A stretch of DNA of 64,000 nucleotides. Origin: Prevotella sp. (GTDB lineage Bacteria; Bacteroidota; Bacteroidia; Bacteroidales; Bacteroidaceae). Positions 14,210-33,693 of this stretch are shown here, piece by piece (position 1 is the first letter of the stretch; every line of letters starts with the position of its first letter). The notes beneath the pieces are model-generated. The model was given only the letters and a program-made list of their open reading frames with translations. It did not search any database and was not told where the DNA came from. The DNA lies in assembly GCA_017412705.1 (NCBI GenBank), contig JAFPWS010000079.1, forward strand, positions 1 through 64,000, given 5' to 3'. The translations under genes and the position numbers were made by a program.

Positions 14210-17038
14210 TTACTTTTTCTCTTCAGTATCTTCAGATAACATGGTGACTTCGATGCAACGCTTGGCGTCGAGCAGGCGCTGGGCCATCTGCTGCACCTGC
14301 TGTGGGGTCATTTGCTCCACCATCTGGCAGTAGTTGAGGTCGAAGTCGGTCTCGTCGTCTATCTCATGCCATATCACATAGTCCCAATAGCCGTCATCGA
14401 TGGCCAACTGGGCATACTGCTTGGTGAGGTATTGCTTTACCTTATCCATGCTGGTAGCCTCAGGACCATGCTCGGCAATGTTCTTCAGCTGCTGATAGAT
14501 AATGGGGTTGAGCTCCTGATAGCGGTTGGGGTCGGCATTGTAGGAAATCTTCAGCATGGCATTGGGCTTCTCGTCCTTATCTAATTCGAAGCTGACACCG
14601 ACGCCATAGGTACCGCCTTTCTCCTCGCGGACAGAATCGGTGTAGGCAATGGAAAGACAACGCTTCAGGAAGTCGAGTTCAAGGTCGCTCTGTGGCGTGA
14701 AAGGTACGTCAGCAGTGTAGTAGATGCTGACATTGGCCAACGGGGTAGCCTGTTGCTTGCGGAAGATGTGGACAGACTCGCCGCCCGTCACGCGAGGCAC
14801 ACGGTCCCAGTTGGTCGTCTCCTGCTTGTGGGTGGCAGGCAGCGTAGCCAGATACTGGCACAGCAGCGGGCGGAGGTCGTCGAGATCTATGTGCCCGATG
14901 ATAACGGTCTTGAAGTTGGCGGCATCGGCAAAACGCTCCTGATAGATTTGGAAGATGCGGTCGTAGTCGGCCTTGTCTATCACCTCCTGTGTAACAGGCT
15001 TGGTGCGTGGATGGTGTGCATAGAGGATAGCCTTGATAGAGTCGTTATAGTCTACCTTGGGCGATGCATTGCGGTTGCTGAGGAATGAGCGGGTGCGGTT
15101 CATCAGACTGTTGAATGCCGTGGTGTCGCGTCGTGGCTGGGTAAAGTAGAGGTAGGCCAGTTCGAACATGGTCTTGATGTCCTTGACAGAACCGCTACCG
15201 CTGACGCTTTGCCCACGCGAGCCTACTGAGGGTGCTACGCGAACAGCCTTGCCAGTTAGCATCTTACGTAGTGTAATGGCATCGAAGTCGCCTACGCCAG
15301 CCTCGGTGATGCTGCTGGAGATGACAGAGAAGTTGGGGATGTCATCGTCGGGATAGAGCGATGTGCCACCCTCGCCCTTAATGGTCATCTGTACCTGGTC
15401 GGCGGTGAAGTCTGTACTGCGGGCATAGACCTTCATGCCGTTCGAGAGCGTCAGCTCAGTGAAGCCATGCTTGTAGGGCTTCTCGCTGACAATCTTTCCC
15501 GGCTTGGGCAGCTTGCTGATAAGCTGGTCGGCCAGCTTCTGCTCCTTGTACGCTTCATAGGTCTGCTGCTGGGCCTTGAGGATGGTCTCCTCTATCTGAG
15601 CCTCAGTAGGCAGTGCCACGCCCTCCTTGTCGGGACCATAGAGTACACATACCTGATTCTTGTCGGTAATGAGATCACGGGCTGAACAATTCACCTCGTC
15701 GAGGGTAGCCTCGCCGTCCAGCTTCTGGGCCATCTGCATGTCGAACTCCTCCGACGTCAGAGGCTCGGCAGTCAGGAAATGACGTACACACTGGTTGACG
15801 AAATAGGTGTTGCGGCGCTCGTTGCGCTCCTTGAAACGACGCTCCGCGGCTGTGAGGCTGACCTTCTTCGCACGGTCGAGCTCTGCCTGTGTGAAACCAT
15901 GCTGGCGTACACGCTCACTCTCAGCCACAGCAGCGGCGAGTCCGCCCAGGATGTTGTCCTGCTTACAGCTGACAGACAAGGAGAATGCCTCCTTGGTACG
16001 GCTGACGAAGAACGTGCCGGCACGACCCGTCGCACTCATGAATGGCGGGTTGGGCTTCTGGCGCAACTCGCTGAGACGGGTGTTCAGCATATAGGCGATG
16101 AGGCCGTCGACATAATTGTCGCGGATATACTTCTCACTGTTCTTCTCGTTGTCGGGCGTGGCATCACGTTTCATATAGAGGTTGGCCATGACGACGGGCT
16201 GCTCCTTGTCTTTCTGTATGTTGACAATCATCTTGTCGTTGTCGGGTACAGGATAGTAGATGCGTTCGGCAGCGTTCTCAGGCATGGGAATCTGTGAGAA
16301 TAGCTTCTTCACCTTCTGCTCTACCTGATCCACGTCTATGTCGCCCACCACAATGACGGCCTGCAGGTCAGGACGATACCACTTCAGGTAGTAGTCGCGC
16401 AAGTCCTGATAGGGGAAGTTGTCGACAATGTCCATCGAACCGATGGGCAGACAGTCTTCGTACTTTGAACCCTTATAGATGGCGGGCAGGGCATCTTCCA
16501 TCAGCCGTTGCATGGCCATGCCGGCACGACGGGTACGCCACTCTTCGTGAATGACACCGCGCTCCTTGTCAATCTCCTTGTCTTCAAGAAGGATGTAGTG
16601 ACTCCAGTCGTTCAGTACCAACAGGCAGGAGTCGAGAATGCCCTCGCGCTTCAGCGGGGCGGAGCCGATGTGATAGACCGTCTGGTCAACAGAGGTATAG
16701 GCATTGAGGTTCGCCCCGAACTTGACGCCGATGGTCTCGCACCAGGGAACGATGCCCAGCTGGCCGTCCTTGCCTGGGAAATGCTTCGTTCCGTTGAAAG
16801 CCATGTGCTCCAAGAAGTGAGCCAGACCGCGCTGGCGAGGCTCCTCAAGGATGGAACCCACTCGCTGGGCAATGTAGAAGTCAGCCAACCCAGCCTCCTT
16901 GGCATTGTGGCGCAAATAGTAAGTCATGCCGTTCTGCAGCCTGCCCATGCGCACGGCTGGGTCCTGCGGCAGCCCTTGGGCATGGCCGCCCGTTAAGGTC
17001 GCTACGGCTAATAAGACGGTGGTAAACAGTTTCTTCAT
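14210..17038 (-). CDS. Secreted M16-family zinc metallopeptidase
   Basis: This 942-residue insulinase-like protease has an N-terminal signal (MKKLFTTVLLAVATLTGGHAQG). The inverted zinc motif HFLEH is at residues 74-78, and the third metal ligand is expected in the downstream KERGVIHEEW segment. A second M16-like half follows after about residue 500, without a zinc motif, as in PqqL-type one-chain enzymes. It should degrade peptides in the periplasm. ATG at 17038 is chosen over an in-frame start at 17086, which would lie upstream of the promoter element at 17066-17073. Together with its own promoter it heads a two-gene unit. Confidence 0.92.
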   Translation of the reverse strand: MKKLFTTVLLAVATLTGGHAQGLPQDPAVRMGRLQNGMTYYLRHNAKEAGLADFYIAQRVGSILEEPRQRGLAHFLEHMAFNGTKHFPGKDGQLGIVPWCETIGVKFGANLNAYTSVDQTVYHIGSAPLKREGILDSCLLVLNDWSHYILLEDKEIDKERGVIHEEWRTRRAGMAMQRLMEDALPAIYKGSKYEDCLPIGSMDIVDNFPYQDLRDYYLKWYRPDLQAVIVVGDIDVDQVEQKVKKLFSQIPMPENAAERIYYPVPDNDKMIVNIQKDKEQPVVMANLYMKRDATPDNEKNSEKYIRDNYVDGLIAYMLNTRLSELRQKPNPPFMSATGRAGTFFVSRTKEAFSLSVSCKQDNILGGLAAAVAESERVRQHGFTQAELDRAKKVSLTAAERRFKERNERRNTYFVNQCVRHFLTAEPLTSEEFDMQMAQKLDGEATLDEVNCSARDLITDKNQVCVLYGPDKEGVALPTEAQIEETILKAQQQTYEAYKEQKLADQLISKLPKPGKIVSEKPYKHGFTELTLSNGMKVYARSTDFTADQVQMTIKGEGGTSLYPDDDIPNFSVISSSITEAGVGDFDAITLRKMLTGKAVRVAPSVGSRGQSVSGSGSVKDIKTMFELAYLYFTQPRRDTTAFNSLMNRTRSFLSNRNASPKVDYNDSIKAILYAHHPRTKPVTQEVIDKADYDRIFQIYQERFADAANFKTVIIGHIDLDDLRPLLCQYLATLPATHKQETTNWDRVPRVTGGESVHIFRKQQATPLANVSIYYTADVPFTPQSDLELDFLKRCLSIAYTDSVREEKGGTYGVGVSFELDKDEKPNAMLKISYNADPNRYQELNPIIYQQLKNIAEHGPEATSMDKVKQYLTKQYAQLAIDDGYWDYVIWHEIDDETDFDLNYCQMVEQMTPQQVQQMAQRLLDAKRCIEVTMLSEDTEEKK

Positions 17039-17093: not shown

Positions 17094-17148
17094 GGCCTGT
17101 TATTCACAAATATTTCGCATAATCATCATTAATAGGTATCGGTCCGCC

Positions 17149-17179
17149 TTGTGTAACTCGTACTTTTTTAGTATCTTTG
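17149..17179 (+). promoter_or_regulatory. Promoter of the seven-gene outer-membrane operon
   Basis: TTG at 17149-17151, 20 nt, then TATCTTTG at 17172-17179. It lies 24 nt before the first TonB receptor gene. I see no Fur- or other operator-like palindrome across it. Confidence 0.7.
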
Positions 17180-17203: not shown

Positions 17204-20179
17204 ATGAGCAAGAGAATTGTCGCAATACTCCTTTGTATATATAGCTTTACCGTCATGTCTATGGCACAGAATATGACGGTGGCCGGTCGTGTCACCGACG
17301 AGGCCAGCAAGCAACCCATAGAGTTCGCATCCGTCCTGATGAAGGATAACGGACGCTGGGCTGTTACCGATGCCGACGGGCGCTTTGTCATGAAGAATGT
17401 CCCTGAGGGCAAGGCTGCGCTGGTCGTCCAGTGCCTGGGCTACGCCACCCGTTCCCTCGTACTCGACATCAAACGCGACATGAAGAGCCTGAACATCGGT
17501 CTGAAGCAGGAAGACCTGCGTCTGGAGGAAGTCACTATTACCGCCCGAAGGAAACATGACGAGGCTACCACGTCGTACACCATAGACCGTGCGGCTCTTG
17601 ACCAGCAGCAACTTCTCAACATCGGCGACATAGCGACCCTGCTCCCCGGGGGCAAGACAGTCAATCCCACGCTGATGAACGACGACCGTCTGGCGCTGCG
17701 TAGTAGCAGCTTGGAGAAAGGTAATGCGTCGTTTGGCACGGCCATTGAGATAGATGGTGCCCGTCTTGACAACAATGCCGCTGCCGGCGAGACGATGTCG
17801 GCCTCTACGCGTAGCCTTGGCACGTCGAACATTGAGAGCGTGGAGATAGTAACTGGCATTCCCTCGGTAGAGTATGGCGACCTGTCGAACGGTGTGGTAA
17901 AGGTAAATACCCGGAAGGGAAAGTCACCCTTCATCATCGAGGGCAAGCTCAACCAGCATACCCGCCAGATAGCTGTCAACAAGGGCTTCGATTTCGGCGC
18001 CAATAAAGGTGTGCTCAATGCCTCCTTTGAACATGCACGCTCGTTTAGCGATGCCGCTTCGCCACATACCGCCTATCAACGTAACATCCTGTCGCTCAAC
18101 TACAGGAACACCTTCTGGCGGCAGCGGGCGCCCCTCACTTTGAATATAGGCATCTCAGGCAATATTGGCGGGTACAACTCGGAAAGCGACCCTGACAACG
18201 ATTTGGAAGACTACGCCAAGGTACGCGACAATGCCTTGCGTACCCATGTGCAGGTGGACTGGCTGCTGAACAAACCGTGGATTACGAATCTGCAGCTGCA
18301 CGGCTCGCTGTCCGTGACAGACCGTATGTCCGAGAACTATAACCATGCCAGCAGTGCCTCCACACAGCCCTATATCCACACCATGACCGAGGGCTATGCT
18401 ATGGCGCAGGACTACGACGTGAATCCCAATGCGGACATCGTGCTCGGTCCGACGGGCTATTGGTATGTGCGGAGCTACCATGACTCCAAGCCACTTAACT
18501 GGTCGTTGAAGCTCAAAGGCGACTGGACACGTCGTTTCGGCCCCGTACTGAACAGGCTGCTGGCAGGTGTCGAGTACACTGGTTCAAAGAACAATGGCCG
18601 TGGAAGCTATTTCGAGGACATGCGCTATGCCACGACATGGCGTGAGTACCGCTACGACGAGTTGCCTGCCATGAACAATGTTGCCATTTATGCAGAAGAT
18701 AAAGTGACCGTCCCCACCTCACGGCTGGCCCAGATAGAGCTGACAGCGGGTCTGCGTGATGATATTACGCTCATCAGCGGCTCCGACTACGGCACCGTCA
18801 GCAGCCTCTCTCCACGCTTTAACAGCCGTTATCTGTTCTGGCGCAACCGGCGCAGCCGGTGGGTCAGTGACCTGAGCGTACATGCCGGCTGGGGCAAGAG
18901 CGTCAAGCTGCCCTCGTTCCAGGTGCTCTATCCTACGCCGTCGTATGCCGACAGGCTGGCCTTTGCCTCGACATCGACCAGCGACAACAAGTCCTACTAC
19001 GCCTACCATACTTATCCCTCCAAGGCCCTTTATAACTCAGACCTGCGTTGGCAATATACCAACCAGGCAGACCTTGGACTGGAAATGACAGTCAAGGGAA
19101 CACGCATCAATGTGTCGGCATACTATCATCGCACCTACCGTTCCTACATGTCTACCGATGTCTTTACTCCCATGACCTATCTCTATACGCCTCCTTCATC
19201 TTTGGACGGCATAGCGATTGCTGCTGCCAATCGGCTGTTTGACATCAACCGCCAGACCGGTGTAGTGACGGTAAGCGATGCCGCAGGTCTGCTGCCTTCT
19301 CAGGCGCTATCCTACAACCAGCGTAATACTTATGCAGTCAACAGCCGTTATGTGAATGCCAGCCCGGTCAGCCGCTACGGCCTGGAATGGATGGTTGACT
19401 TTGCACAGATACGGGCCCTGCGTACCTCGCTGCGTATAGATGGCAACTACTATTATTATAAGGGCTTGGACGAAGTGCTGTTTGCAGACATTCCATTAGG
19501 CGTCAATACGACACAGGCATCAGGTCAGCCCTATAGCTACGTAGGCTACTATCGCGGGTCAGGCGTGACCAGCGCAGGTAGTGTGGCCAATGCCTCCATC
19601 AGCAATGGTGGCTTGTCAAAACAGGTAAACCTCAATGCTACGGTGACCACACACATACCAAGCCTGCGACTCATCGTCTCGCTGCGTATCGAGACATCAC
19701 TTTATAACTACCGTCGGCAGCTGAGTGAGTACGATGACGGTACCAGAGGCTATACGCTGGCCAGCAATGCAGACTACTTTGGTACTCCCTATGACGGCAG
19801 CAGCGAGAACAAGTTCTTGGCTGTCTATCCTGAATACTATTCCACGTGGGACAATCCTACAGAGCTGATTCCCTTTGCAGAACGCTTTGCATGGGCCAGG
19901 GACAACGACCCTACGCTATATAGCGACTTGTCGAAGCTGGTGGTACGGTCCAACTATGCCTACACCATGAATCCGAACCGCATCAGCAGCTACTACTCAG
20001 CCAACCTCAGCGTGACGAAGGAAATAGGCAACCATGTGTCGTTGTCATTCTATGCCAACAATTTCCTGAACAATATGAAGACGGTGCACTCGTCGCAGAC
20101 TGACTTGGAGACTTCCCTCTTTGGAAGCAGCTATATACCCAGTTACTACTATGGTTTGTCACTCAGACTGAAATTCTAA
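17204..20179 (+). CDS. TonB-dependent outer-membrane receptor, module copy 1
   Basis: This 991-residue protein has a signal peptide (1-22), a carboxypeptidase-regulatory-like domain (about 25-110, VAGRVTDEASKQPIEFASVLM), a TonB plug (about 125-235, including VEIVTGIPSVEYGDLSNGVVKV) and a large beta-barrel ending in the outer-membrane C-terminal Phe (GLSLRLKF). It imports a ligand across the outer membrane using TonB energy. No SusD gene follows; instead a lamin-tail-like lipoprotein and a beta-barrel protein do, and the trio is then repeated. The ligand is unknown. The HMA protein at the operon end suggests a metal or metal complex. Confidence 0.88.
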   Translation: MSKRIVAILLCIYSFTVMSMAQNMTVAGRVTDEASKQPIEFASVLMKDNGRWAVTDADGRFVMKNVPEGKAALVVQCLGYATRSLVLDIKRDMKSLNIGLKQEDLRLEEVTITARRKHDEATTSYTIDRAALDQQQLLNIGDIATLLPGGKTVNPTLMNDDRLALRSSSLEKGNASFGTAIEIDGARLDNNAAAGETMSASTRSLGTSNIESVEIVTGIPSVEYGDLSNGVVKVNTRKGKSPFIIEGKLNQHTRQIAVNKGFDFGANKGVLNASFEHARSFSDAASPHTAYQRNILSLNYRNTFWRQRAPLTLNIGISGNIGGYNSESDPDNDLEDYAKVRDNALRTHVQVDWLLNKPWITNLQLHGSLSVTDRMSENYNHASSASTQPYIHTMTEGYAMAQDYDVNPNADIVLGPTGYWYVRSYHDSKPLNWSLKLKGDWTRRFGPVLNRLLAGVEYTGSKNNGRGSYFEDMRYATTWREYRYDELPAMNNVAIYAEDKVTVPTSRLAQIELTAGLRDDITLISGSDYGTVSSLSPRFNSRYLFWRNRRSRWVSDLSVHAGWGKSVKLPSFQVLYPTPSYADRLAFASTSTSDNKSYYAYHTYPSKALYNSDLRWQYTNQADLGLEMTVKGTRINVSAYYHRTYRSYMSTDVFTPMTYLYTPPSSLDGIAIAAANRLFDINRQTGVVTVSDAAGLLPSQALSYNQRNTYAVNSRYVNASPVSRYGLEWMVDFAQIRALRTSLRIDGNYYYYKGLDEVLFADIPLGVNTTQASGQPYSYVGYYRGSGVTSAGSVANASISNGGLSKQVNLNATVTTHIPSLRLIVSLRIETSLYNYRRQLSEYDDGTRGYTLASNADYFGTPYDGSSENKFLAVYPEYYSTWDNPTELIPFAERFAWARDNDPTLYSDLSKLVVRSNYAYTMNPNRISSYYSANLSVTKEIGNHVSLSFYANNFLNNMKTVHSSQTDLETSLFGSSYIPSYYYGLSLRLKF

Positions 20180-20197
20180 ATACAAATAGGTGTTGAC

Positions 20198-21520
20198 ATG
20201 AACAAGCTCTTTTATATATGGACCTTCCTGATACTTGCCGTCTCTTGCTCTGACAATGACGGATTACCCTCAGAGGCTTTGTCTATGGGACAGGTCAGCG
20301 TGGTTTTGACAGGAGACGGCGACCTGTCGGGCTTTGAGACCCAGTTGCGTAATATCGCAACTAACAGCGTTTTTATTGAGACCAGCGATGCCGAGGGCAA
20401 GGTGCTGTTCCGTGTAACCCCGGGCATCTACGAAGCCAGTGCAACAGGTGCCCGTAGTGCTGAAGGCTATGCCTATACCTACAACGGAACTACGGGACAG
20501 CTGACAGTCAGGAATGGTGAGACGACCAACGTTACTATTGGGATGAAAAGTGCGCGCACCAGCCAGATAGTCATCAAGGAGCTCTACAATGGCGGTTGCA
20601 TGCGGGACAACGGGGTCGACACCTATCAGTACGACAAGTGCATCATCCTGTATAATAACAGCAGCCAGCCGGCCAGCCTTAGCAATCTCTGCTTTGGCGA
20701 AGGTTCACCGTCGAATGCTCACTCAAACAACAAAAACTACAATGCTGACGGAAAGCTGACGTATGAGTCGGAAGGCTTTATCCCCGTATGGAACGGCATC
20801 TGGTACTTCCCGTCGACAATGGAGCTGGAACCCTATCAGCAATTGGTGGTCAATGTTCATGGCGCCATCGACAACACACAGACAGTAAGCCAGTCGGTCA
20901 ACTATGCCAATAGCGACTACTACTGCATGTACGACCCGGAGAGCGGCTATACCCACACCAGCTATTATCCTACACCGGCGGATGTTATCCCTACGAGCCA
21001 CTATCTGAAGGCAGTGAGGTACGGTTTGGGTACGGGCTGGGCGCTGAGTGTCAGCGCACCGGCATTGGTGATGTTCCAAACACATGGCGTGTCACCTGCC
21101 GACTATGCGGGCAGCACAGATAACATGTGGTATGACGGTGGTCAGGCGGGAAGTCAGGTGTGGGCCTGTGTCAAGGTCCCTAACGAGTGGATTGTCGATG
21201 CCATAGAGGTGTTCTCGTCCGGTTATAAGGACAGCAGTATGAAGCGACTCACCTCAGACATTGATGCGGGTTATGTCTGGTTGACCAATTACAAGGGTCA
21301 TTCGCTCTATCGTAATGTGAACCAGGCTGCGACTGAAGCCCTGCCGGAGAATGAGGGCAAACTGGTCTACAATTATGCGTTGGGTACAAACGGGTCTACC
21401 GACCCCTGTGGCATTGATGCTGAGGCGTCATTGCGACAGGGTGCCCATATCGTCTATCAAGATACCAATAATTCAACAAATGACTTCCACGAGCGAGAAA
21501 AATGTTCATTAAGAGACTGA
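20198..21520 (+). CDS. DUF4876-type lipoprotein, module copy 1
   Basis: This 440-residue lipoprotein has the signal MNKLFYIWTFLILAVSC with acidic residues right after the Cys (SDND), like a Bacteroidota surface-export signal. A beta-sandwich-like domain (about 30-115) precedes a lamin-tail-like domain (SQIVIKELYNGGC ... CIILYNNSSQPASLSNL). The C-terminal block SDIDAGY ... DTNNSTNDF is shared with the second copy at 25918. I assign it to DUF4876 from memory of this layout in Bacteroides and Prevotella. It may be a surface partner of the receptor. It overlaps the next gene by 19 nt. Confidence 0.75.
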   Translation: MNKLFYIWTFLILAVSCSDNDGLPSEALSMGQVSVVLTGDGDLSGFETQLRNIATNSVFIETSDAEGKVLFRVTPGIYEASATGARSAEGYAYTYNGTTGQLTVRNGETTNVTIGMKSARTSQIVIKELYNGGCMRDNGVDTYQYDKCIILYNNSSQPASLSNLCFGEGSPSNAHSNNKNYNADGKLTYESEGFIPVWNGIWYFPSTMELEPYQQLVVNVHGAIDNTQTVSQSVNYANSDYYCMYDPESGYTHTSYYPTPADVIPTSHYLKAVRYGLGTGWALSVSAPALVMFQTHGVSPADYAGSTDNMWYDGGQAGSQVWACVKVPNEWIVDAIEVFSSGYKDSSMKRLTSDIDAGYVWLTNYKGHSLYRNVNQAATEALPENEGKLVYNYALGTNGSTDPCGIDAEASLRQGAHIVYQDTNNSTNDFHEREKCSLRD

Positions 21521-23106
21521 TAACAACGACACTGTGCGCTGCCGCCTTGTGTGTCTATGCCCAAGACAGCCTGTTGCTTCGCGACCTGGAAACCGTCAGG
21601 CAGCAAAACGCGTGGCTGACCCAATCCAATGCTGCAGCGCTGACTCAGTTTGCAGCGCCCAATATTGCCAAGGCCGAGGCGGCACTTACCTACGAACGAG
21701 GTGGATTGACAGACTATACCGGGGGTATGCGTCAGCTGACTGCCGACGTATGGGCCGAAGCCTTCTACAGACTCAGCCGACGTACGGTGGTCTATGGAAC
21801 CATCAGCTACCAGAATCTGTCAGCCCGCGACGCTACGGGGTCTGCATTCATCAACCCCAGCCGGATGCCCTTTGACTTGGTAGAGGACTCGCTGACCAAT
21901 GCTGGCGACAAACATTTGGATACCTATCGCTTGAGTGGTGGCGTGGGTGTTGATGTCTGGAAGGGAATGTCTGTCGGAGCCCGACTGGACTATACTTCAG
22001 CCAACTATGCCAAGTATAAGGATTTGCGCCATAAGAACAAGCTGATGGATCTCCGGCTGACAGCAGGCGTCTATGCTCCAGTATTGTCCTGGCTAAGCGT
22101 GGGGGCCGACTATCAGTATCATCGTCAGACAGAGAGCGTGTCATTCAGCACGTATGGAAAGAGCGAGAAGGTCTATAAGACGTTCATCGACTATGGTGCC
22201 TTCATGGGACGTGTCGAGCAGTTTGGCAACGAGGGCTTTACAGACAAGAGTCGTGAGATGCCGTTATTTGAGGAGTCGCATGGTGGAGCCGTTCAGTTGG
22301 AGGTTCGCCCCGTAGAACGGCTCTCTCTGTTGGCAACTGCCAGGTTTAGTCATGGCACAGGCTATTATGGGCGCCGTTCACCCTATACCATAACCTATAC
22401 TGGTCACGAGCGGAACACAATGGAGCTGTCAGCTGCCATCCGTTATGATGCAGCGTCGGCACAGTATTATCTCCGTGCCAGCTTTCGTCGTGAAAAGCTG
22501 GAGAACCGTGCTGAGACCTTCCGTGAGTTGACGAATCAAAACGGAGCTACCTATTACGAATACTACGACCCTGTGGAGATGGGTGACAAATGGTGGCGCG
22601 ACCTGCAACTCTCCTGGACCTCGCTGTTGGGCATGCAGGGTGAGACACCCACCTGGCGGCTGAATGCCACCTACCAATGGGGCAAGCGTACAGAACGCGC
22701 CTATCTGTATCCTTTCTTCCGTCGCCAACAGATTCATACCAACGAGGTGGGGCTGAACGTTACCCGTAACCTGATAAGCCGTCGTGGCATTTGGTCGTTG
22801 ACTTTGGAAGGCGGCTTCCGAAAGGGCAGTGGCTCTCCCTTTGATGACGGTGTGTTTGCCATCCCCAGCAGTAAGCAGGAACAGCCTGCCGTCATGGAGG
22901 CTATGCTGTGGCGTGAGTATCAGTGGCTCTGCGCCGCCCAGTATCGTATAGGAGGCAGTGTGCAGTATGCCTTTGTCTTCCCTGGCACGCGTCTGAAGAC
23001 CCATGCCCGACTTTCCGCAAGCCATCGTAAGGCCAACGAGACCTTCGACTATAGCCAAGGCTGCGACCGCACCCAGCTGTCGCTGGCCCTGGGTTGCACT
23101 TTCTAA
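21502..23106 (+). CDS. Outer-membrane beta-barrel protein (DUF6850-like), module copy 1
   Basis: This 534-residue exported protein has the signal MFIKRLITTTLCAAALCVYAQ. The mature part alternates aromatic and polar residues as outer-membrane strands do, and ends in Phe (LSLALGCTF). It shares blocks with the second copy at 27146: a GGM(R/Q) segment, then GARLDY followed by a charged stretch and (L/M)DLR or LDYR. I assign it to DUF6850 from its gene context. It starts inside the end of the lipoprotein gene, so the two are translationally coupled. The function is unknown. Confidence 0.7.
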   Translation: MFIKRLITTTLCAAALCVYAQDSLLLRDLETVRQQNAWLTQSNAAALTQFAAPNIAKAEAALTYERGGLTDYTGGMRQLTADVWAEAFYRLSRRTVVYGTISYQNLSARDATGSAFINPSRMPFDLVEDSLTNAGDKHLDTYRLSGGVGVDVWKGMSVGARLDYTSANYAKYKDLRHKNKLMDLRLTAGVYAPVLSWLSVGADYQYHRQTESVSFSTYGKSEKVYKTFIDYGAFMGRVEQFGNEGFTDKSREMPLFEESHGGAVQLEVRPVERLSLLATARFSHGTGYYGRRSPYTITYTGHERNTMELSAAIRYDAASAQYYLRASFRREKLENRAETFRELTNQNGATYYEYYDPVEMGDKWWRDLQLSWTSLLGMQGETPTWRLNATYQWGKRTERAYLYPFFRRQQIHTNEVGLNVTRNLISRRGIWSLTLEGGFRKGSGSPFDDGVFAIPSSKQEQPAVMEAMLWREYQWLCAAQYRIGGSVQYAFVFPGTRLKTHARLSASHRKANETFDYSQGCDRTQLSLALGCTF

Positions 23107-23123
23107 TTTGTCACTAACAACTA

Positions 23124-25904
23124 ATGATTCGTATGAATATACACAAGACCTTATTCGTGCTCTCGCTGCTGGTGCTGTCTGTCAGCGCCATGGCTCAGAA
23201 GAGCAAAGGGCCCGCCTACTCCATCGACCTGACCGTCAAGGACAAAGGCACCAAGGAAGCCATCATCATGGCCACTGTCCAGTTGCAACCCTCTGGTGCC
23301 ATTGCCGTGACCGATGCCGACGGACATGCCACCATCAAGAATGTAGAGACGGGCACGTACACCGTCAACATCTCGTATGTGGGCTACGAGCCTGTCAACA
23401 CCACCATCAAGGTGAATAAGCCCCTCCACCTCAATTTCCTGATGGAGCCTACCACGCTGGCCCTGCAAGAAGTCAGCGTCACAGCCAAGCAGAAGGTAAG
23501 CGGAGCATCGACCAGCAGCCTTATCTCGCGACAGGCCATCGACCACCTGCAGGCAGCGTCGCTGGCCGACATCATGCAGCTCATCCCCGGACAACTGATG
23601 GGCAATACCGACCTCACCTCGCAGTCGAACCTGCAACTGCGCACACTGGTCAACAACAATACGTCGGCCTTTGGCTCCAGCATCGTGGTTGACGGCATGC
23701 CTATCTCCAACAATGCAGCCATGACACAGGGCGGATTCTCCGCAACGTCCTTCACTGGTACCGACCTGCGTCAGATTGCTGCCGACGACATCGACAATGT
23801 AGAAGTTATCCGAGGTATTCCCTCGGCAGAGTATGGCGACCTGACCAGCGGACTGGTAGTGGTACGCTCCAAGGTGGGAGTCACTCCCTGGCAGGCCAAG
23901 GGCAAGATTACACCAGAGCTGATGAACTACTCGCTGGGTAAAGGTTTCCGTTTGAACAAGGCGGGCATCCTGAACTTCAATGCCGACTATGCACAGGCCT
24001 GGGGCGACCCCCGTCAGAAGACACGTTCCTACCACCGCTATACCTTCAATGTCGGCTGGGGCTACGACATCACACGTCGATGGCATACCGATACCAAGCT
24101 GCGCTTCATGCACTCCAAAGACTGGAGCGGCAACGACCCCGATGCCCAGCAGGACGGCAACGAGTCGAAGGCCAAGAACTTCACCTTCGGTCTGACGCAC
24201 AATGGGCGACTGTCACTCGACAAGCCCCTGATGCGCACCCTGTCGTACACCTTTGGCATGACGTTCAACCGCATTGACAATCGCAACACCTCCTACGTTG
24301 CCACCAGCTCAGGACTACTGCCCATCCTGACAGCTCGCGAAACGGGCTACTACAATGTGCCGTGGATGACAACATCGTATCAGGCAACAGGCATCACCGA
24401 GAGTCGTCCTGGCAATATATATTTCAAGGCCAGCGATGCCTTCTTCCTGCGCTTGGGCAAGACGATGCAGAGTTTCAAGGCAGGCGTGGAGTACCACTAC
24501 GACTGGAACAATGGCCAGGGCTACTACAACGCCGACGAGTCGCGTCCCTACCGTCCCAACAGCGACGGCCGTCCACGAGCCTTCAGCGATGTGCCTGGCC
24601 TGCACCAGCTGGCAGCCTACGCTGAGGACAACTTCTCATGGGATATTAATAAGGTGAACCGTCTGCGCATCAACTTCGGTATGCGCTTTACCTCATTGCA
24701 GCCTTTCAGCGATGTTGCCACTACGGCACTCTCCCCTCGTCTGAATGTCATGTTCACCGTTGCCAAGTGGCTCGACATCCGTGGTGGCATCGGTCTTAAC
24801 TCCAAAACACCGGGTCTGAACTACCTCTACCCTGACAAGAAGTACGAAGACCGTGTGGCAGCCAACTATATGCCACAGGACGATGCCACCGCCCAACTGC
24901 TGAACTACCATACGCAGGTCTACGAGGTACAACACTCCAAGGACCTGAAGAATGCCACCACAACGAAGATAGAGATAGGTGCCGACATCAAGTTGCCTGG
25001 CAACCGTCGCATGAGCATCCTCTACTATCGCGACAAGACGCCCAACGGCTTTGGCTCCGCTACCGAGTACTTCACCTATCAGTCGAACTACTACGACCAG
25101 ACACAGGGCCTCGCCATCACCCCTGGTGCTGCTACGACCATCGACTATAGCCACCCTGCCCGCACCGACCTCATCTTCATGACGACGGGTAAGATTGGCA
25201 ATACCAACACGACAATCAACAAAGGTGTGGAGTTCGACTTCGACCTGGGCGAAATCAAGCCTCTGCAGACCTCCGTCAGCTTCAGCGGCGCCTGGTCGGA
25301 GACCAAGACCTGGTCGTCAGACCTCAATGCCTCTTCCGTTCGCGCAGCACTATTGCCCACCTCGTTCTCGGCTTATGGACTGACCCCATTTAAGGTTATC
25401 TACCCCTCTGAGGTAGACTACAGCCGTTACCGCCGCTTCGTCAACACCCTGCGACTGGTAACCCATATCCCGCAGCTGCGCATGGTGGCCTCGCTCACTG
25501 GGCAGGTCATCTGGCACAACAGCACGTGGAGCTACACGGGCGACAAAGACCCGATAGGCTGGATAGACTCCAACCTACAGCGCCATGACCTGACCAGCGA
25601 TATGCTGAATGGCTATTTGGGCATGGACGGTCAATACTATGCCACACGTCCCGACAGTCAGAACAGCGTGGCACTACAAGACCTGCTCATCCGCCCCACA
25701 GACAACGAGCCCTCGGAGAATCCCATCACTTGGAACATCTCAGCACGACTGACGAAAGAGTTGGGCAAGCTGGGCGGCCTATCGTTCTACGTCAACAACG
25801 TGCTCTTCTACGAACCCTTCCTCAAGGGCAACAAGACCAATTCTCTCAGCCAACGCAACACGGGAACGTTCTCGTTTGGTGCCGAACTTTACCTGAATCT
25901 TTAA
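23124..25904 (+). CDS. TonB-dependent outer-membrane receptor, module copy 2
   Basis: This 926-residue receptor has the same design as the one at 17204: signal peptide (1-25), a carboxypeptidase-regulatory-like domain (DLTVKDKGTKEAIIMATVQL), a plug with NVEVIRGIPSAEYGDLTSGLVVV, and a long barrel ending FGAELYLNL. The plug motif (V)I-RGIPS-EYGDL is nearly the same in both, while the barrels differ much more, so the copies probably bind different ligands or surfaces. It starts 17 nt after the preceding barrel gene. The second in-frame ATG at 23133 is an alternative start. Confidence 0.88.
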   Translation: MIRMNIHKTLFVLSLLVLSVSAMAQKSKGPAYSIDLTVKDKGTKEAIIMATVQLQPSGAIAVTDADGHATIKNVETGTYTVNISYVGYEPVNTTIKVNKPLHLNFLMEPTTLALQEVSVTAKQKVSGASTSSLISRQAIDHLQAASLADIMQLIPGQLMGNTDLTSQSNLQLRTLVNNNTSAFGSSIVVDGMPISNNAAMTQGGFSATSFTGTDLRQIAADDIDNVEVIRGIPSAEYGDLTSGLVVVRSKVGVTPWQAKGKITPELMNYSLGKGFRLNKAGILNFNADYAQAWGDPRQKTRSYHRYTFNVGWGYDITRRWHTDTKLRFMHSKDWSGNDPDAQQDGNESKAKNFTFGLTHNGRLSLDKPLMRTLSYTFGMTFNRIDNRNTSYVATSSGLLPILTARETGYYNVPWMTTSYQATGITESRPGNIYFKASDAFFLRLGKTMQSFKAGVEYHYDWNNGQGYYNADESRPYRPNSDGRPRAFSDVPGLHQLAAYAEDNFSWDINKVNRLRINFGMRFTSLQPFSDVATTALSPRLNVMFTVAKWLDIRGGIGLNSKTPGLNYLYPDKKYEDRVAANYMPQDDATAQLLNYHTQVYEVQHSKDLKNATTTKIEIGADIKLPGNRRMSILYYRDKTPNGFGSATEYFTYQSNYYDQTQGLAITPGAATTIDYSHPARTDLIFMTTGKIGNTNTTINKGVEFDFDLGEIKPLQTSVSFSGAWSETKTWSSDLNASSVRAALLPTSFSAYGLTPFKVIYPSEVDYSRYRRFVNTLRLVTHIPQLRMVASLTGQVIWHNSTWSYTGDKDPIGWIDSNLQRHDLTSDMLNGYLGMDGQYYATRPDSQNSVALQDLLIRPTDNEPSENPITWNISARLTKELGKLGGLSFYVNNVLFYEPFLKGNKTNSLSQRNTGTFSFGAELYLNL

Positions 25905-25917
25905 GTATAAAAGCATT

Positions 25918-27156
25918 ATGAGCAAACTGTATATCATCCATCATTCCGCGTGCCGCTCCCTCGGCGTAGCACTGGGGGGCCTCTTGTGTATGGCCTCCTG
26001 CGTCGACTATAACGACGCTACGGACTATATCTCTGCAACAGTACGGCTGGAGATGCCTGCCGAATTTACACAGGGCACAGACTACGAGGGCCACGACATC
26101 ACGTTGCAGCTGAACGGCCAGCGCATTACTGCCACCACCAATAACGAGGGCGTGGCTACATTCACAAATCTGATACCCGACGTCTACGACATCTCCACGT
26201 CATGGGAAATCACCAATGCCCAATACCAAGCCCTGACTGGCGATGCCAGTGTCAACAGCGGCTGCACGGTATCAGGCTCGCTGAACAGCCACCTGATTGC
26301 TGCCGAACAGACCATAACGCTGGAGACCATCCTCAATGTCAACCGCGACATTGTCATAGGCAAGGTGTATTATGCCGGCTCGAAGGATAATAACAACCGC
26401 TCGTACCTGGCGGGCAAGTTCATCGAACTGTATAACCAGAGCAACAATCCCGTCGATGTCGGTGGACTGTACATCGGGCTGGTAGAGGCAGAGAGCACAC
26501 AGGCCTATACCCTCGATAACCTGCATGAGGTATATGCCGACTCAGTGGTGCTGCTCAAACAGGTGTTCCGCATTCCTGAACAGGAGCATCTTGTAAAACC
26601 TGGCGGCACGGTGCTCATCGTCAACAGCGCCATAGACCATACCACGAACAACGACCTCGACTACAACCTGCTCGATGCAGACTTCGAGGCCAAGGATGCC
26701 AGCGGACGTACGCAGAACAACCCTGCCACACCGGCCCTCGAACTCATCTACTCGATGTACTCTGCCGTGTCGAACATGAACCTTGTCCAAAGCGGCCCCT
26801 GCGGCGTGGTCATCTTCCGAACCAACGACGACCCCACCGCCTGGCCTCGCACCTACCGCTACCAGAAGACCACCGGCAACCAGTGGCTCTTGCTGCCTAA
26901 GCGCCATATCATTGACGGTGTGGAAATTCTGGGCAACAAAGCCTCAGGTGTTGACGTGAACACCAAACGGCTATACAGTGACATCGATGCAGGCTATACC
27001 AACATCGAGGCTACCAGCGGCTGGACGGGCGAGATAGTCTATCGCAAGACGCAGAAGACGGGCGACAGCGGCCAACGCATCCTGACGGACACCAACAATT
27101 CTACCAACGACTTCAAAGTATCAACCACCATCGGCCCACGCAACTATGACGAATAA
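25918..27156 (+). CDS. DUF4876-type lipoprotein, module copy 2
   Basis: This 412-residue lipoprotein has a signal with lipobox MASC (Cys near residue 24), an N-terminal beta-sandwich-like domain (about 35-130) and a lamin-tail-like domain (VIGKVYYAGSKDNNNR ... KFIELYNQSNNPVDVGGLYIG). The C-terminal block has KRLYSDIDAGY and DTNNSTNDF, as in copy 1. It overlaps the following barrel gene by 11 nt, mirroring the overlap in copy 1. The role is probably the same as for copy 1; no enzyme motif is visible. Confidence 0.75.
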   Translation: MSKLYIIHHSACRSLGVALGGLLCMASCVDYNDATDYISATVRLEMPAEFTQGTDYEGHDITLQLNGQRITATTNNEGVATFTNLIPDVYDISTSWEITNAQYQALTGDASVNSGCTVSGSLNSHLIAAEQTITLETILNVNRDIVIGKVYYAGSKDNNNRSYLAGKFIELYNQSNNPVDVGGLYIGLVEAESTQAYTLDNLHEVYADSVVLLKQVFRIPEQEHLVKPGGTVLIVNSAIDHTTNNDLDYNLLDADFEAKDASGRTQNNPATPALELIYSMYSAVSNMNLVQSGPCGVVIFRTNDDPTAWPRTYRYQKTTGNQWLLLPKRHIIDGVEILGNKASGVDVNTKRLYSDIDAGYTNIEATSGWTGEIVYRKTQKTGDSGQRILTDTNNSTNDFKVSTTIGPRNYDE

Positions 27157-28696
27157 AACCATTCTTACCACCGTGGCCCTGATGGCCACCACCGCTTGCA
27201 GTATGGCTCAAACACCACTGGCAGGCGAGAGCGAGTACAGATACGACGACGCCACACAGCTCTGGCGCAACACCGATATGGCAGCAGGCCTCTCCATCGA
27301 CTCGGCTCGTAATCGCGGCATAGCCTACTTCAATCTCTACCACCGTCAGGGTGACTACCGCCGAGTGCAGGAAGGTGGCATGCAGAATCAGTTGCAGTTC
27401 TTCACCGAACGGTACCAGACCATCGGCAAGTACCTCTATGGCTATGGGCGCTTCCAGTTTGACATGGGACGCACCAAGGACCGCGCTTGGAGCGACGTAC
27501 AGCGCACCTACCACGCCAACCCCTTCATCGCAGGCAGCAGCATTGCCGGCAAGTACGACAACCAGAGTTTCGACTTCACGGCAGCCCTGGGGACCACTGG
27601 CTTTGGCGGATGGCGCTTCGGTGCCCGACTGGACTATAAGGTGGGCGACCTAAGCCGACTGCGCGACCCTCGTAGCCGTTCGCAGCTACTCGACTATCGC
27701 ATCACACCCTCGGTGACCTATACCACAGGGTCCAACACCTTTGGCGTCAGCGGCTACTACAATCGTCGCAAGGAGAAGATACCCAACATGACGACCGTAC
27801 AGGACGACCCCAACCTGATGTACTACCAGATGAGTGGTATGGAGGCCGTCAGCGGTACTACGGGCGGCTATAAGGGATTCCAGCGCGAGTGGGTGGACCA
27901 TCAGTTTGGTGCCTCGCTGGCTTACGGTTACAAGGGTGGTGATGTATCGTCACTCACCACCGTTACTGTCAGCAAGGGACAGGAGTACGTCTATGAGACC
28001 TACAAACGTGAGCCTGGCCGTTACTATAGCTACCTCTATGGGCTCCATAGCATGAACCGACTGCAGCCGGGGCGGCTGATACACCAGTTTGACATCAGTG
28101 CCGACTACCGTCAGGGCTACGCTGACGAGTACCGTCAGGAGTTGCAAATAGACAATGACCCCCAGACGGGATACACCTCGTACAGCTATAAGACGCTCAT
28201 CACCTTCAAGAAGCGCTATCAGGTCAAGCTGTTCGACCTCGACCTGCACTACCGCCTCAACTTCACCGACGGCCAGCAGGCCATCACAGGCTATGCCGGA
28301 CTGAAAGGTCACATAGCCACAGCCTCCGACAAGCACCTGCTGCCTACCTCACAGCTGAAGCTGGGCACCACCGATATCACCCTTGAGGGTGGCAAGGCCC
28401 TGCTTTGCGCCGACAAACTATGGCTCGACGCCTCGGTGGGCTTCCACCATGCCTCGAAGGCCGACCTCTCACTGGCCGATGTCAACACCGATTATGCCCA
28501 GCAAGTGCTACTGCCCGACATGGACTACTATCGCGCCAACTACTGGAAGGGCAGCCTCAGCATCACCTACCAGTTCCCGGTCAGCATCAAGCAGGTACGC
28601 TCGCGCTGGTTTGTCCGCGCCTATGGCAACTACCTGAAGAGCAACAACTCGCTCGATGCCTCGACCATTGGTTTCTCCATCGGACTATTCAATTAA
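27146..28696 (+). CDS. Outer-membrane beta-barrel protein (DUF6850-like), module copy 2
   Basis: This 516-residue exported protein has the signal MTNKTILTTVALMATTACSMAQ and a barrel-like mature part that ends in IGFSIGLFN. It shares its layout and several motifs with the protein at 21502 (GGM near the start, GARLDY, paired aromatic strands). The ATG lies inside the end of the lipoprotein gene. An alternative reading as a lipoprotein (TTACSMA) is less likely, because the SMAQ cleavage site fits signal peptidase I. Confidence 0.7.
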   Translation: MTNKTILTTVALMATTACSMAQTPLAGESEYRYDDATQLWRNTDMAAGLSIDSARNRGIAYFNLYHRQGDYRRVQEGGMQNQLQFFTERYQTIGKYLYGYGRFQFDMGRTKDRAWSDVQRTYHANPFIAGSSIAGKYDNQSFDFTAALGTTGFGGWRFGARLDYKVGDLSRLRDPRSRSQLLDYRITPSVTYTTGSNTFGVSGYYNRRKEKIPNMTTVQDDPNLMYYQMSGMEAVSGTTGGYKGFQREWVDHQFGASLAYGYKGGDVSSLTTVTVSKGQEYVYETYKREPGRYYSYLYGLHSMNRLQPGRLIHQFDISADYRQGYADEYRQELQIDNDPQTGYTSYSYKTLITFKKRYQVKLFDLDLHYRLNFTDGQQAITGYAGLKGHIATASDKHLLPTSQLKLGTTDITLEGGKALLCADKLWLDASVGFHHASKADLSLADVNTDYAQQVLLPDMDYYRANYWKGSLSITYQFPVSIKQVRSRWFVRAYGNYLKSNNSLDASTIGFSIGLFN

Positions 28697-28715
28697 ATCA
28701 ACAAATACAAAAGTT

Positions 28716-29480
28716 ATGAAAAAACAACTCACAACCCTTCTTTTGTTGGCTGTCGCATCGCTGCAGCCACTTTCAGCCGCTAACAGCGACACCCTTACCG
28801 TGCGCATAAAAGGTATGCGCTGCGACGATTGTGCCCACAAAGTAAAAACCGCCCTGCGTCAGGATGCTGGCGTGGGAGGCATCGAGTTTAATCTGGAGCG
28901 TCGCACCGCCACCATCGCCTTCGACCCTGCCAAGACCTGTGCAGACAGCATCGAAGCCCGTCTCGCTGCCACCAAGCGCTACAAGGCATCGCCCTACTCC
29001 AAGGATGAGATTATCCGCCGAGGCTATGGCCAGCGCATCGACGACATGCACTGCAAGAAGTGTGCCGACCGCATCACCGAGCGCCTCAGCCAGTTGGAAG
29101 GCATTGACTCGCTGGTTCCCCACCTGGACAAGCACTACTTCTTCATCCGCTACGATGCCAACCGCACCTCGAAGGCAGAAATCCGCAAGCTGCTCAACAA
29201 GATTGGCTACACGCCTGTGAACTATTATACCAGCGACAAGATCAGCTGGTACTACCTGCTGATTCCCGCTGAGCAGGCTACACAGGAGACGATGGACGCA
29301 GTCATGGCCATCGACGGTGTAGAGGATGTCAATGTTAACATCATGCGCAAGTCGCTGGCCATCACCTACTTCACTGACGAAATCAGCGGCGAACGCCTGC
29401 TGGACGAAATTAAGAAGGCAGGCATCAAGGCTGAGCTCCCCAAGCCTCACGAATGTAAAGAGGAAAAGAACGAAAACTAA
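28716..29480 (+). CDS. Secreted protein with three HMA-like domains
   Basis: This 254-residue protein has a signal peptide (about 1-22) followed by three ferredoxin-like heavy-metal-associated domains. Domain 1 (about 25-92) has GMRCDDC with Cys36/Cys39, and domain 2 (about 103-170) has DMHCKKC with Cys113/Cys116. Domain 3 (about 174-246, ending LLDEIKKAGIKAEL) has the fold but no CxxC. HMA domains usually carry Cu(I) in the cytoplasm, so an exported tandem is unusual. As the last gene of the operon it points to copper, zinc or a metal complex as the transported substrate. ATG at 28716 is chosen for the signal peptide. Confidence 0.82.
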   Translation: MKKQLTTLLLLAVASLQPLSAANSDTLTVRIKGMRCDDCAHKVKTALRQDAGVGGIEFNLERRTATIAFDPAKTCADSIEARLAATKRYKASPYSKDEIIRRGYGQRIDDMHCKKCADRITERLSQLEGIDSLVPHLDKHYFFIRYDANRTSKAEIRKLLNKIGYTPVNYYTSDKISWYYLLIPAEQATQETMDAVMAIDGVEDVNVNIMRKSLAITYFTDEISGERLLDEIKKAGIKAELPKPHECKEEKNEN

Positions 29481-29566: not shown

Positions 29567-30334
29567 TTATTTGACGACAAACTTGCGTCCGTTCACAATG
29601 TTCAGACCGCGCTGCAGGCTGTTCAGACGAACACCCTGGAGGTTGTAGATTACTCTGGATTCCTCTTCGTCGGCAGTAATGCTGGCAATGCCGCTGCCTG
29701 TGGTCTTCTGTAATTTAACGCTGGACCATATCTCCGCATACCCGATGCTGCTGCCGTAGGGTATGGCGGCAGCCACTATGGCATAGAGCTTCTGGGAGTT
29801 GTATTCAGCACTGCTAAGGCTGTACACACCACCTTCAGTGCTGGTCCAACCGCTCCAGAACACAGGCGCCGCGTATGCAGAGGCATCCTCGTTATCAGTT
29901 AACAGATAGATGTAGTGATGCTCCTCCGAGCCGCTGCCCCAGTACCAGAAGCCATTCTCCAGATAGCTGTCCTTGGGTTCGTCAAACTCCTTGGTAAAAG
30001 CGGGCTGTTCATTGCTTAGAACCCATCCTATGCGGTGCTGCCCGTTGTTCTCTTCTATCAGCAACTGCCAGTCGGCAGGATATTCTATGTTCTGCTTGCT
30101 CTTGTACAGGCAGCCGGCATGACAGTTTAGCGACTGTCCGTCGTTGGCTACGGTGGCAGTGAACGTAAACTCGTCGGTACCGGCGGAATAGATGCCTGGT
30201 GCCACCTCCGTACCGTTGTTCGAAGCCGTAAACTTCCATTCACCAGCCATCGCCTGCAACAGTTCAGACTGTGCAGGCGATGCGATGGAATATGCTGCCA
30301 AAAGGCAGGCAATGATTACTCTAAACTTTTTCAC
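29567..30334 (-). CDS. Secreted protein with C-terminal sorting-type tail
   Basis: This 255-residue protein has the signal MKKFRVIIACLLAAYSIASPAQ and a beta-rich mature domain (MAGEWKFTASNNGTEVAPGI...) of no known family. The C-terminus reads VIYNLQGVRL...LQRGLNIVNGRKFVVK, nearly the same tail as in the large gene upstream. Such tails are common on Prevotella cell-surface or secreted proteins and may be a sorting signal of the type IX kind. Its start overlaps the upstream gene by 4 nt (ATGA), so it is the second gene of a two-gene unit. The function is not known. Confidence 0.7.
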   Translation of the reverse strand: MKKFRVIIACLLAAYSIASPAQSELLQAMAGEWKFTASNNGTEVAPGIYSAGTDEFTFTATVANDGQSLNCHAGCLYKSKQNIEYPADWQLLIEENNGQHRIGWVLSNEQPAFTKEFDEPKDSYLENGFWYWGSGSEEHHYIYLLTDNEDASAYAAPVFWSGWTSTEGGVYSLSSAEYNSQKLYAIVAAAIPYGSSIGYAEIWSSVKLQKTTGSGIASITADEEESRVIYNLQGVRLNSLQRGLNIVNGRKFVVK

Positions 30335-33300: not shown

Positions 33301-33531
33301 GGCATCCTCGGTGTCAGCATTGTCGGTGCCTGTGCCGTCCTCGCCGAGTCCTTTCAGGTCGGCTTTCACCCATACGGTGTCGCCCGAGGCTGCCAATGCG
33401 TCCTTCTGGGCGTTCAGTTCTGCTACGGTGTAGGGCGACTTCTTGGTGCCGTCTCCGGCCCAGGCCTGTCCCACACCCAGCAACATGCAGGCCGTGAGGG
33501 CCAGCGTTTTTAGAGTAGAAAAATGTCTCAT
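30331..33531 (-). CDS. Large secreted multidomain protein with sorting-type tail
   Basis: This 1066-residue protein has a signal peptide MRHFSTLKTLALTACMLLGVGQAWA. The N-terminal part (about 25-150) resembles a bacterial OB-fold-like region (VAELNAQKDALAASGDTVWVKADLKG). The middle and C-terminal parts hold repeated modules, each starting with an IAAFNA(V/L) segment and continuing with VKLTLKDARV or VTLTDAEV, alternating with APEGxAVTQI beta-sandwich segments. The C-terminus is VIYNLQGVRMNALQKGLNIVNG plus KKVVIK. It is probably an extracellular binding or adhesion protein. ATG at 33531 is chosen; the in-frame start at 33603 lies upstream of the promoter. Confidence 0.78.
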   Translation of the reverse strand: MRHFSTLKTLALTACMLLGVGQAWAGDGTKKSPYTVAELNAQKDALAASGDTVWVKADLKGLGEDGTGTDNADTEDADKKTVHHLAALFGDATGEFVGYSWAILGQIAMSDLTNTKDLLIGVTYGTTVHYYNSDSSFEQYGNQYADHHEPETAHFSLVEVHNALSVKIENGLRGYHVPASIIIPEKVIAVKVSAGYSASSGAYVNYTNFDGADETINRVLGKNSPMVWMAADGTYDVVLTTAYYNQTASNSNALNAGTQAGVNAGTTKNRYRFRFVADGTKAGFERNSTENCTVTLQSKDEVFLQVNSADNNFGGNYTWETEAKDWITWAGGTYGDYRPLATAVTFDIQNNNGEWPVGEGADYALGNVSTLTMDGITLTGIQGESANPVRIMKNATRGICLWLYKGTSIQFKAPEGKAVTQIAVTMQSGSFDLTPSSGAVAENVWTGNATEVTFGPNANSTRYVWAFAVTLADENDETIKPAAADVEAADIAAFNAVENGKVVKLTLKDARVNAYWDLQGAYYVEDATGATVIKGVTLTAGTALNGYIIGTKSNTEQTDYSTMETAAVEYALTATDASTFEATATTLTGTVMTGAEAAAQANYGRLVTLENVAISGGNNKTLTVDGTALPLKARDYMGVLPSDFTWPEKASKLTGVVVFYMTGWFIMPISAEAIVAAGEQPTEVTFNFTDPNFRENIGEKLADVKGNIYNETFTQDNVSFQVTAGSAASKLYVDANRGQNLVTYKEYTTLTFRAPEGYAVTQITFTAAGNSNINNFTASSGTIEGMTWTGNAEGVRFAQGGTSYLANAIVTLAAKTGETTALPAIEYTECANIAAFNALAAGTYAKVTLTDAEVIGKSADGFSTVWIQDATGGCWIQYTSLNDKLKESTKVNGTVYVVARPNSGNVQMKEAESTVNSELTATDITEYTIVEGTLAAVNVAANLNKVVKITGATLEETSTSAGTLKQGEATIAVNNGAETANQQLHKISDWAKDTKLENITIVAILVGKSTTENQLLPISITTGGTGIANINAANAENVVIYNLQGVRMNALQKGLNIVNGKKVVIK

Positions 33532-33572
33532 AAGCTTATAATCTTTAAAATTAATGTATATTTTCGCCGCGG

Positions 33573-33603
33573 CAAAGGTACGAATTATTTGTGTATTACA
33601 CAA
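33573..33603 (-). promoter_or_regulatory. Promoter of the secreted protein gene pair
   Basis: The minus-strand TACCTTTG is at 33580-33573 and TTG at 33603-33601, with a 20-nt spacer. The start codon is 41 nt downstream. Confidence 0.8.
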
Positions 33604-33693
33604 TCCCCAAAAGTAGGTATTCAGCTTTTTTCACACTTCCTACCTTGATCAGTTTTTACTATCCAATATAATGGTCGTACCCTTGCAGCGTCC

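Follow-up and report, generated by a model that had tools for sequence, protein, structure and literature searches.

A Prevotella outer-membrane import locus with a linked M16 protease, an HMA protein and an iron-starvation-type promoter motif

Receptor–protease sets such as FusA/FusC of Pectobacterium and YddB/PqqL of E. coli have been described by Grinter and colleagues as protease-associated import systems, which the accessible portion of that work reports in Proteobacteria (PMC6793856; see also PMC6071955, likewise consulted in part). Here we analyse a locus from Prevotella sp., a gut-dwelling relative of the rumen Prevotella, in which two trios of TonB-dependent receptor, DUF4876 lipoprotein and DUF6850 barrel are followed by an HMA protein and flanked by a divergent M16 metalloprotease. 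The locus lies in a stretch of 64,000 nucleotides (GenBank assembly GCA_017412705.1, contig JAFPWS010000079.1, positions 1 to 64,000), hereafter called the window. With moderate confidence, we read it as an import locus induced by iron starvation, probably with proteolytic release of metal. Similar to the Fus and PqqL sets, it joins a TonB receptor to an M16 protease akin to PqqL and FusC; it may also have their iron-type regulation, to which a shared promoter motif points. Unlike them, its receptors are not FusA-like by sequence, and it adds a DUF4876 lipoprotein, a DUF6850 barrel and an HMA protein.

The loci PG1019-22, BT1933-39 and BT3625-33 share with the window the combination of DUF4876 and a TonB receptor. 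Upon iron depletion, PG1019-22 rose 20.8-214.5-fold, BT3625-33 36.7-128-fold and BT1933-39 3.5-7.4-fold; in all three species studied flavodoxin was up, as was the locus that is compared to PG1019-21, according to the accessible part of PMC10434189. That part names no HMA or M16 protein at these loci. Our own comparison with them covered BT_1938 (PDB 4q1z), as a structure, and the second lipoprotein of the window has its fold. In Porphyromonas and Bacteroides, homologous loci are induced by iron starvation.

Two further groups of described systems match parts of the locus. SusCD and RagAB also have a receptor with a CarboxypepD-like N-terminus and a partner lipoprotein; in contrast to them, the window has a receptor far below the SusC/RagA cut-off (first receptor, 75.7 bits against 368.25 for NCBIfam model TIGR04056, for which the second was not listed), no SusD family among the genes scanned with Pfam, and a lipoprotein of the DUF4876 family. 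CopZ and MerP share HMA domains with MxCxxC and, for MerP, export (judged by eye in the window protein), whereas the window protein has three domains, the third without CxxC, and is fused to a protease in relatives. In the search listings we recognised no published description of the full set of trio, HMA and M16 genes, and listings on DUF6850, or on HMA domain, TonB-dependent receptor, Bacteroidetes and copper together, gave none. The accessible parts of PMC4222909, which deals with a P. gingivalis relative of Fur, and of PMC9291397, on M16 history, contain neither the motif nor the locus.

Gene content and trio types

A preliminary description of this DNA had proposed seven plus-strand genes without SusD, namely TonB receptor, lipoprotein and barrel twice over and lastly a three-domain HMA protein, and had expected DUF4876 and DUF6850 as the partner families. 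Open reading frames (ORFs) and Pfam families called at curated cut-offs bear this out: all seven ORFs lie at that site in that order, with gaps that are short or overlapping. The first trio comprises the receptor TB1 (17204..20179), the lipoprotein LP1 (20198..21520; DUF4876, 69.6 bits, cut-off 27.9) and the outer-membrane barrel BB1 (21502..23106; DUF6850, 140.7 bits, cut-off 27). The second comprises TB2 (23124..25904), LP2 (25918..27156; 88.9 bits) and BB2 (27146..28696; 304.6 bits), scored against the same cut-offs. Both receptors exceed their Pfam cut-offs, and a receptor tree assigns the first trio to type 1 and the second to type 2. By eye, both DUF4876 proteins have a lipoprotein signal followed by acidic residues, a trait of Bacteroidota surface lipoproteins. 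Their fold, a lamin-tail domain with a transthyretin/CnaB-like domain, gives no hint to the ligand. BB2 is porin-like, with about 18 strands by our own count and no TonB-receptor plug. Its Foldseek matches are TonB-receptor barrels such as OprC (TM 0.38) and offer no evidence for copper.

The three HMA stretches claimed for the last gene were recovered (Pfam HMA, 99.6 bits), but two details of that protein changed. Its ORF opens at 28656, and the start is probably at 28716, judging by eye from the signal peptide (gene 28716..29480, exported by eye). MxCxxC is present in domains 1 and 2 of the alignment and CxxC is missing from domain 3. HMA domains with MxCxxC are usually of the copper(I) type, and the protein passed a single NCBIfam model, TIGR00003 for copper ion binding, at 70 bits against a cut-off of 62. 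The preliminary description had also overlooked the divergent M16 protease and a convergent gene pair (29567-33603), both on the minus strand.

Peptides common to the two trios, SDIDAGY and DTNNSTNDF in the lipoproteins and a plug motif in the receptors, had been taken as a sign that the trio was duplicated as a unit. All are present in the window ORFs as quoted, but they are largely family-wide and thus give no sign of recent duplication. An alignment of 17 DUF4876 lipoproteins has DTNNS, the closing DF and one D of SDIDAGY in every sequence, with the G of SDIDAGY above 90%; in one of 25 receptors, all sequences keep G, Y and G of the plug motif, and its I, P, S, E and L are above 90%. In the same alignments LP1 and LP2 are 23% identical and TB1 and TB2 25%. 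In a receptor tree of 97 rows, built by a quick method and with long-branch warnings, the TB1 type (27 rows) is split from the rest by a well supported branch, as is a third type, TB3 (12 rows). The TB2 type (58 rows) stands apart except for two stray long-branch rows (2 changes needed), and very long branches separate the types. Low identity, family-wide motifs and well supported old type branches lead us to reject a recent duplication of the trio. As the types are old and deeply split, the window holds two long-separated importers next to each other. As judged from the alignments and tree, the two trios are ancient types occurring across the genus, with no fresh duplication, and are presumably differently specific versions of one importer.

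The trio holds together as a unit. Outside the window, 88 of 97 receptors in 110 loci have a lipoprotein and a barrel of matching type (51 trios of type 2, 27 of type 1 and 10 of type 3); two are mixed and seven have no detected partner.

Linkage of the protease and the HMA protein to the trios

The M16 metalloprotease is encoded on the minus strand at 14210..17038 (ORF from 17086), with Pfam M16, an HFLEH zinc motif and, by eye, a signal peptide. A PDB search returned the M16 family entry 9ldy as the best match (720 bits), followed by PqqL (250 bits) and the putative zinc protease 6b03/6brs/6b05 (102-105 bits), which is probably FusC. The matches to PqqL and the putative zinc protease run nearly full length, and other described M16 proteins reached 69 bits at most. 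These scores place the protease in the FusC/PqqL subfamily. The three structure codes were not found in the accessible text of PMC6071955.

To relate the protease to the trios, we compared 74 M16 matches in 60 genomes, using DUF4876 rows from listings and scoring as misses those copies whose contig had no listed DUF4876. Copies at least 51% identical to that of the window lie within 10 kb of a DUF4876 match in 11 of 13 cases, less similar copies in 1 of 61. The exceptions are close copies in genomes G031 and G046 (contig end) without DUF4876 on the contig, and a distant copy (29%) beside a trio in G043. On these counts, the divergent M16 protease is a member of a subclass linked to the trio.

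For the HMA protein, we assembled a named collection of 80 loci kept from 90 relatives; 25 of their titles name ruminant or rumen, and many others bear RUG names, which denote rumen genome sets. Of these loci, 66 contain a receptor, 70 DUF4876, 66 a barrel, 26 M16 and 24 an FMN-binding protein. In 69 of the 80, a trio or M16 gene lies within 2.5 kb of the HMA gene; in 11 none does. Contig ends limit these neighbour counts, and some loci are one genome in two collections (L047/L078, L059/L133, L038/L115), so the counts are not fully independent. HxxEH is present in 25 of 26 M16 ORFs. In 8 of the 80 loci, M16 and then the last two HMA domains occupy one reading frame (7 full length, 1 cut at its start), an arrangement that Pfam confirms as M16 plus HMA in L140. 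A type 3 trio precedes the fused gene in five of these loci; that of L142 stands beside a type 1 trio, and those of L137 and L139 have no trio in the stretch. The fusion suggests that cleavage and metal handling form one step. One genome, G033 (locus L047), has the reversed arrangement of M16, type 2 trio, HMA and type 1 trio. Among cultured relatives, Xylanibacter brevis ATCC 19188 (L118, with FMN_bind) and Segatella baroniae B14 (L129) have HMA together with TB2, LP2 and BB2.

Genus-wide searches agree with this linkage. An HMA-profile match at E 1e-12 occurs in 88 of 249 genus genomes, many of the matches being weak and probably other HMA proteins, and DUF4876 occurs in 124 of the 249. Of 60 tabulated HMA matches (about 90 bits or more), at least 39 share a contig with a DUF4876 match that is no more than 6 kb away. 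The other 21 do not, and for 19 of these the contig carries no DUF4876 among the matches listed. The DUF4876 rows used were a selection from the listing, and an HMA row was scored as a miss when its contig had no listed DUF4876, which makes 39 of 60 a lower bound. The HMA protein is truly linked to trio and M16 loci. Because only 4 of 24 stretches with a full trio contain it, it is an accessory of the trio locus. An order-level search used a query built from genus sequences and a strict E limit, on a sample in which the same family is thinly represented; it found the HMA protein in 1 of 295 genomes, that of the window itself. The co-occurrence of HMA genes and trios that the preliminary description anticipated thus holds from the side of the HMA gene, whereas a strict pairing does not.

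Promoter motif and neighbouring genes

Comparison of the regions upstream of these operons uncovered a conserved TAGGTATTG 20 bases ahead of TAnnTTTG, the Bacteroidota -7 box. The pattern TAGGTATTG-N19-21-TAnnTTTGC is a genus-wide element, present in 200 of 249 genomes; its spacing is almost always exactly 20 among the matches listed, where a reversed control gave one match, in G031. An exact palindrome, TACCTA-N4-TAGGTA with one mismatch, had been tried and dropped (5 matches against 4 for the control in the window's genome) in favour of this one-sided motif with the -7 box. A terminator scan did no better than chance.

To learn what the motif precedes, we looked at a subset of the matches, 66 distinct sites or 72 with repeats. 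The genes that come first after them include 14 other TonB-receptor-like genes, 10 flavodoxins, 6 trio receptors, 4 TetR, 3 hemerythrin-LuxR, 3 CbiX/chelatase, 2 methyltransferases, 1 PepSY and 1 small HMA protein; at 4 of the 66 sites an exported porin-like protein follows (by eye, without a Pfam match). The flavodoxin, TetR, CbiX, hemerythrin-LuxR, PepSY, methyltransferase and HMA names come from Pfam on one member each. The motif is common to genes of the iron-starvation type, and in this genus it would sense iron.

A position weight matrix (PWM) built from 57 sites, with trio and HMA targets left out, finds a degenerate copy of the motif before TB1 (17113..17169, plus strand, score 12.2), the next plus-strand position in the window scoring -2.9. 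None of 7,019,790 shuffled positions reached 12.2. The best copy in the window (33573..33629, minus strand, score 34.4; next minus-strand position -3.2) precedes the convergent pair. In the collection of HMA loci, 42 of 80 loci have a site that this matrix places ahead of a gene of the trio, HMA, LP or M16 kinds, and 38 have none. Counted by gene with a 58-site matrix, sites precede 25 of 73 TB, 17 of 65 HMA, 9 of 118 LP, 4 of 24 M16, 0 of 73 barrel and 10 of 683 other genes (TB and HMA against other genes, Fisher p 3.5e-26, for loci that are related). Many TB and HMA genes are internal to operons, where no site is expected.

The convergent pair comprises a gene for a 1090-amino-acid protein (30331..33603, minus strand) and, second, one for a 255-amino-acid protein (29567..30334, minus strand). 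Both are secreted by eye and end in a similar C-terminal tail; the longer has no Pfam family above cut-off and the shorter no Pfam family. The gene for the 1090-amino-acid protein is probably co-regulated. Relatives of the pair's proteins adjoin HMA genes elsewhere, and by eye and clustering a relative of the first part of the longer one does so in L105.

Relatives have further neighbours. An FMN-binding (PF04205) protein, which we followed from one seed only, is present in 24 of the 80 loci, among them L079 (16977-17375), and often stands after the barrel gene of type 2. That of L124 has a flavinylation-like site, DGVTGAT, a sequence typical of covalent flavin attachment. Longer DUF4876 proteins of about 530-550 amino acids stand beside HMA loci, with a dockerin domain at the end in L124:16419-18074 and a DUF5689 match below cut-off in L109:10254-11858. 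In L042:10671-17262, a type 2 trio is followed on the same strand by a second DUF4876, a nucleoside-recognition (Gate) protein, a polysaccharide-synthesis family protein and an S46 peptidase. In Parabacteroides distasonis, DUF4876, DUF6850 and a TonB receptor follow one another in that order on a record that is listed as plasmid (NZ_OY725779.1, 162215-167421); an incomplete gene table has neither HMA nor M16.

Interpretation of the locus

In the mechanism we favour, iron shortage would switch the operon on. The DUF4876 surface lipoprotein would capture an iron-bearing ligand or carrier and hand it to its own TonB receptor for import, with the DUF6850 barrel as a putative accessory outer-membrane channel. 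In the periplasm, the PqqL/FusC-like M16 protease would cut a carrier that is a protein or a peptide. The exported HMA protein, through its two CxxC pairs, would take the freed metal, an iron-sulphur unit or a stray thiophilic metal. FMN-binding proteins have been linked to iron assimilation, according to the accessible part of PMC8238504, and the one found in some relatives would add a reduction step. What the analysis itself establishes is the gene content, the linkage, the protease-HMA fusion and the promoter motif held in common.

Several observations weigh against this account. M16 was present in only 26 of the 80 HMA loci within the fetched stretch, and 24 relatives' stretches with a full trio contain HMA in 4 cases, M16 in 11 and FMN_bind in 3. 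The protein nature of the substrate is something we infer, and iron sensing in this genus rests on association. Among the 66 motif targets are, by eye, enolase (2), aldolase (1) and phosphoglycerate mutase (1), while 13 sites precede genes without assignment and 1 has no ORF. HMA domains of the copper(I) type that pass TIGR00003 are odd for iron. A receptor profile run against PDB lists 15 sequences at E 1e-5 (SusC, RagA, the ferric enterobactin and colicin I receptors, YncD and others) but neither FusA nor YddB, so by sequence the importer falls outside the FusA family.

It is possible, and we entertain it tentatively, that iron starvation induces the locus to import a small iron compound (siderophore or haem) with no proteolytic step. 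The M16 protease would then trim or check surface or imported proteins, and the HMA protein would guard against toxic copper entering with the ligand or supply the zinc protease. The published iron induction and the iron-type motif fit this equally, and the CbiX/ferrochelatase-like, PepSY and FMN-binding genes suit haem or siderophore handling. It would also suit the trio stretches without M16 (13 of 24) or HMA (20 of 24), and the Parabacteroides trio, for which the incomplete gene table has neither. It sits less well with the protease: the closer M16 class is found near DUF4876 in 11 of 13 cases against 1 of 61 for the common copies below 51% identity, and the protease-HMA fusion suggests cleavage and metal handling as one step.

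Proteolytic release could also be taken further, in a version that we regard as doubtful. The locus would be a counterpart of Fus with unrelated receptors in rumen Prevotella: forage metalloproteins such as chloroplast ferredoxin would be captured by DUF4876, imported and cut by M16, and their iron or iron-sulphur cofactor would pass to the CxxC pairs of the HMA protein, with the protease-HMA fusions as the one-piece form. We know of no such use of HMA domains to receive iron or an iron-sulphur cofactor.

Acquisition of copper or zinc, with the HMA protein as periplasmic acceptor of the imported metal, is unlikely. The MxCxxC domains and the TIGR00003 score above cut-off speak for it. However, the promoter motif is common to flavodoxin and other genes of the iron-starvation type, and among the 66 sites, 13 of them without assignment, we recognised no copper or zinc gene other than the small HMA protein. 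DUF4876 loci respond to iron in the published species, as far as the accessible part of PMC10434189 goes. The motif and these iron-induced homologues also tell against copper or zinc as the signal, which the preliminary description had offered alongside iron. Least probable is an importer of peptides or vitamins whose place next to the HMA and protease genes is incidental. In its favour, TonB receptors take many ligands and the lipoprotein fold gives no hint to one; the 69 of 80 linked HMA loci, the M16-HMA fusions and the iron-type motif argue otherwise.

The favoured reading, of iron-starvation-induced import with probable proteolytic release of metal, bears on a poorly described and strongly iron-induced importer family of Bacteroidota, which is now tied to a protease of its own and to a protein that binds metal. 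The link between protease and HMA protein suggests how the imported load is unpacked. The motif may predict an iron-starvation regulon across Prevotella, a major genus of rumen and gut, and the import of whole metalloproteins by gut Bacteroidota becomes directly testable in cultured strains.

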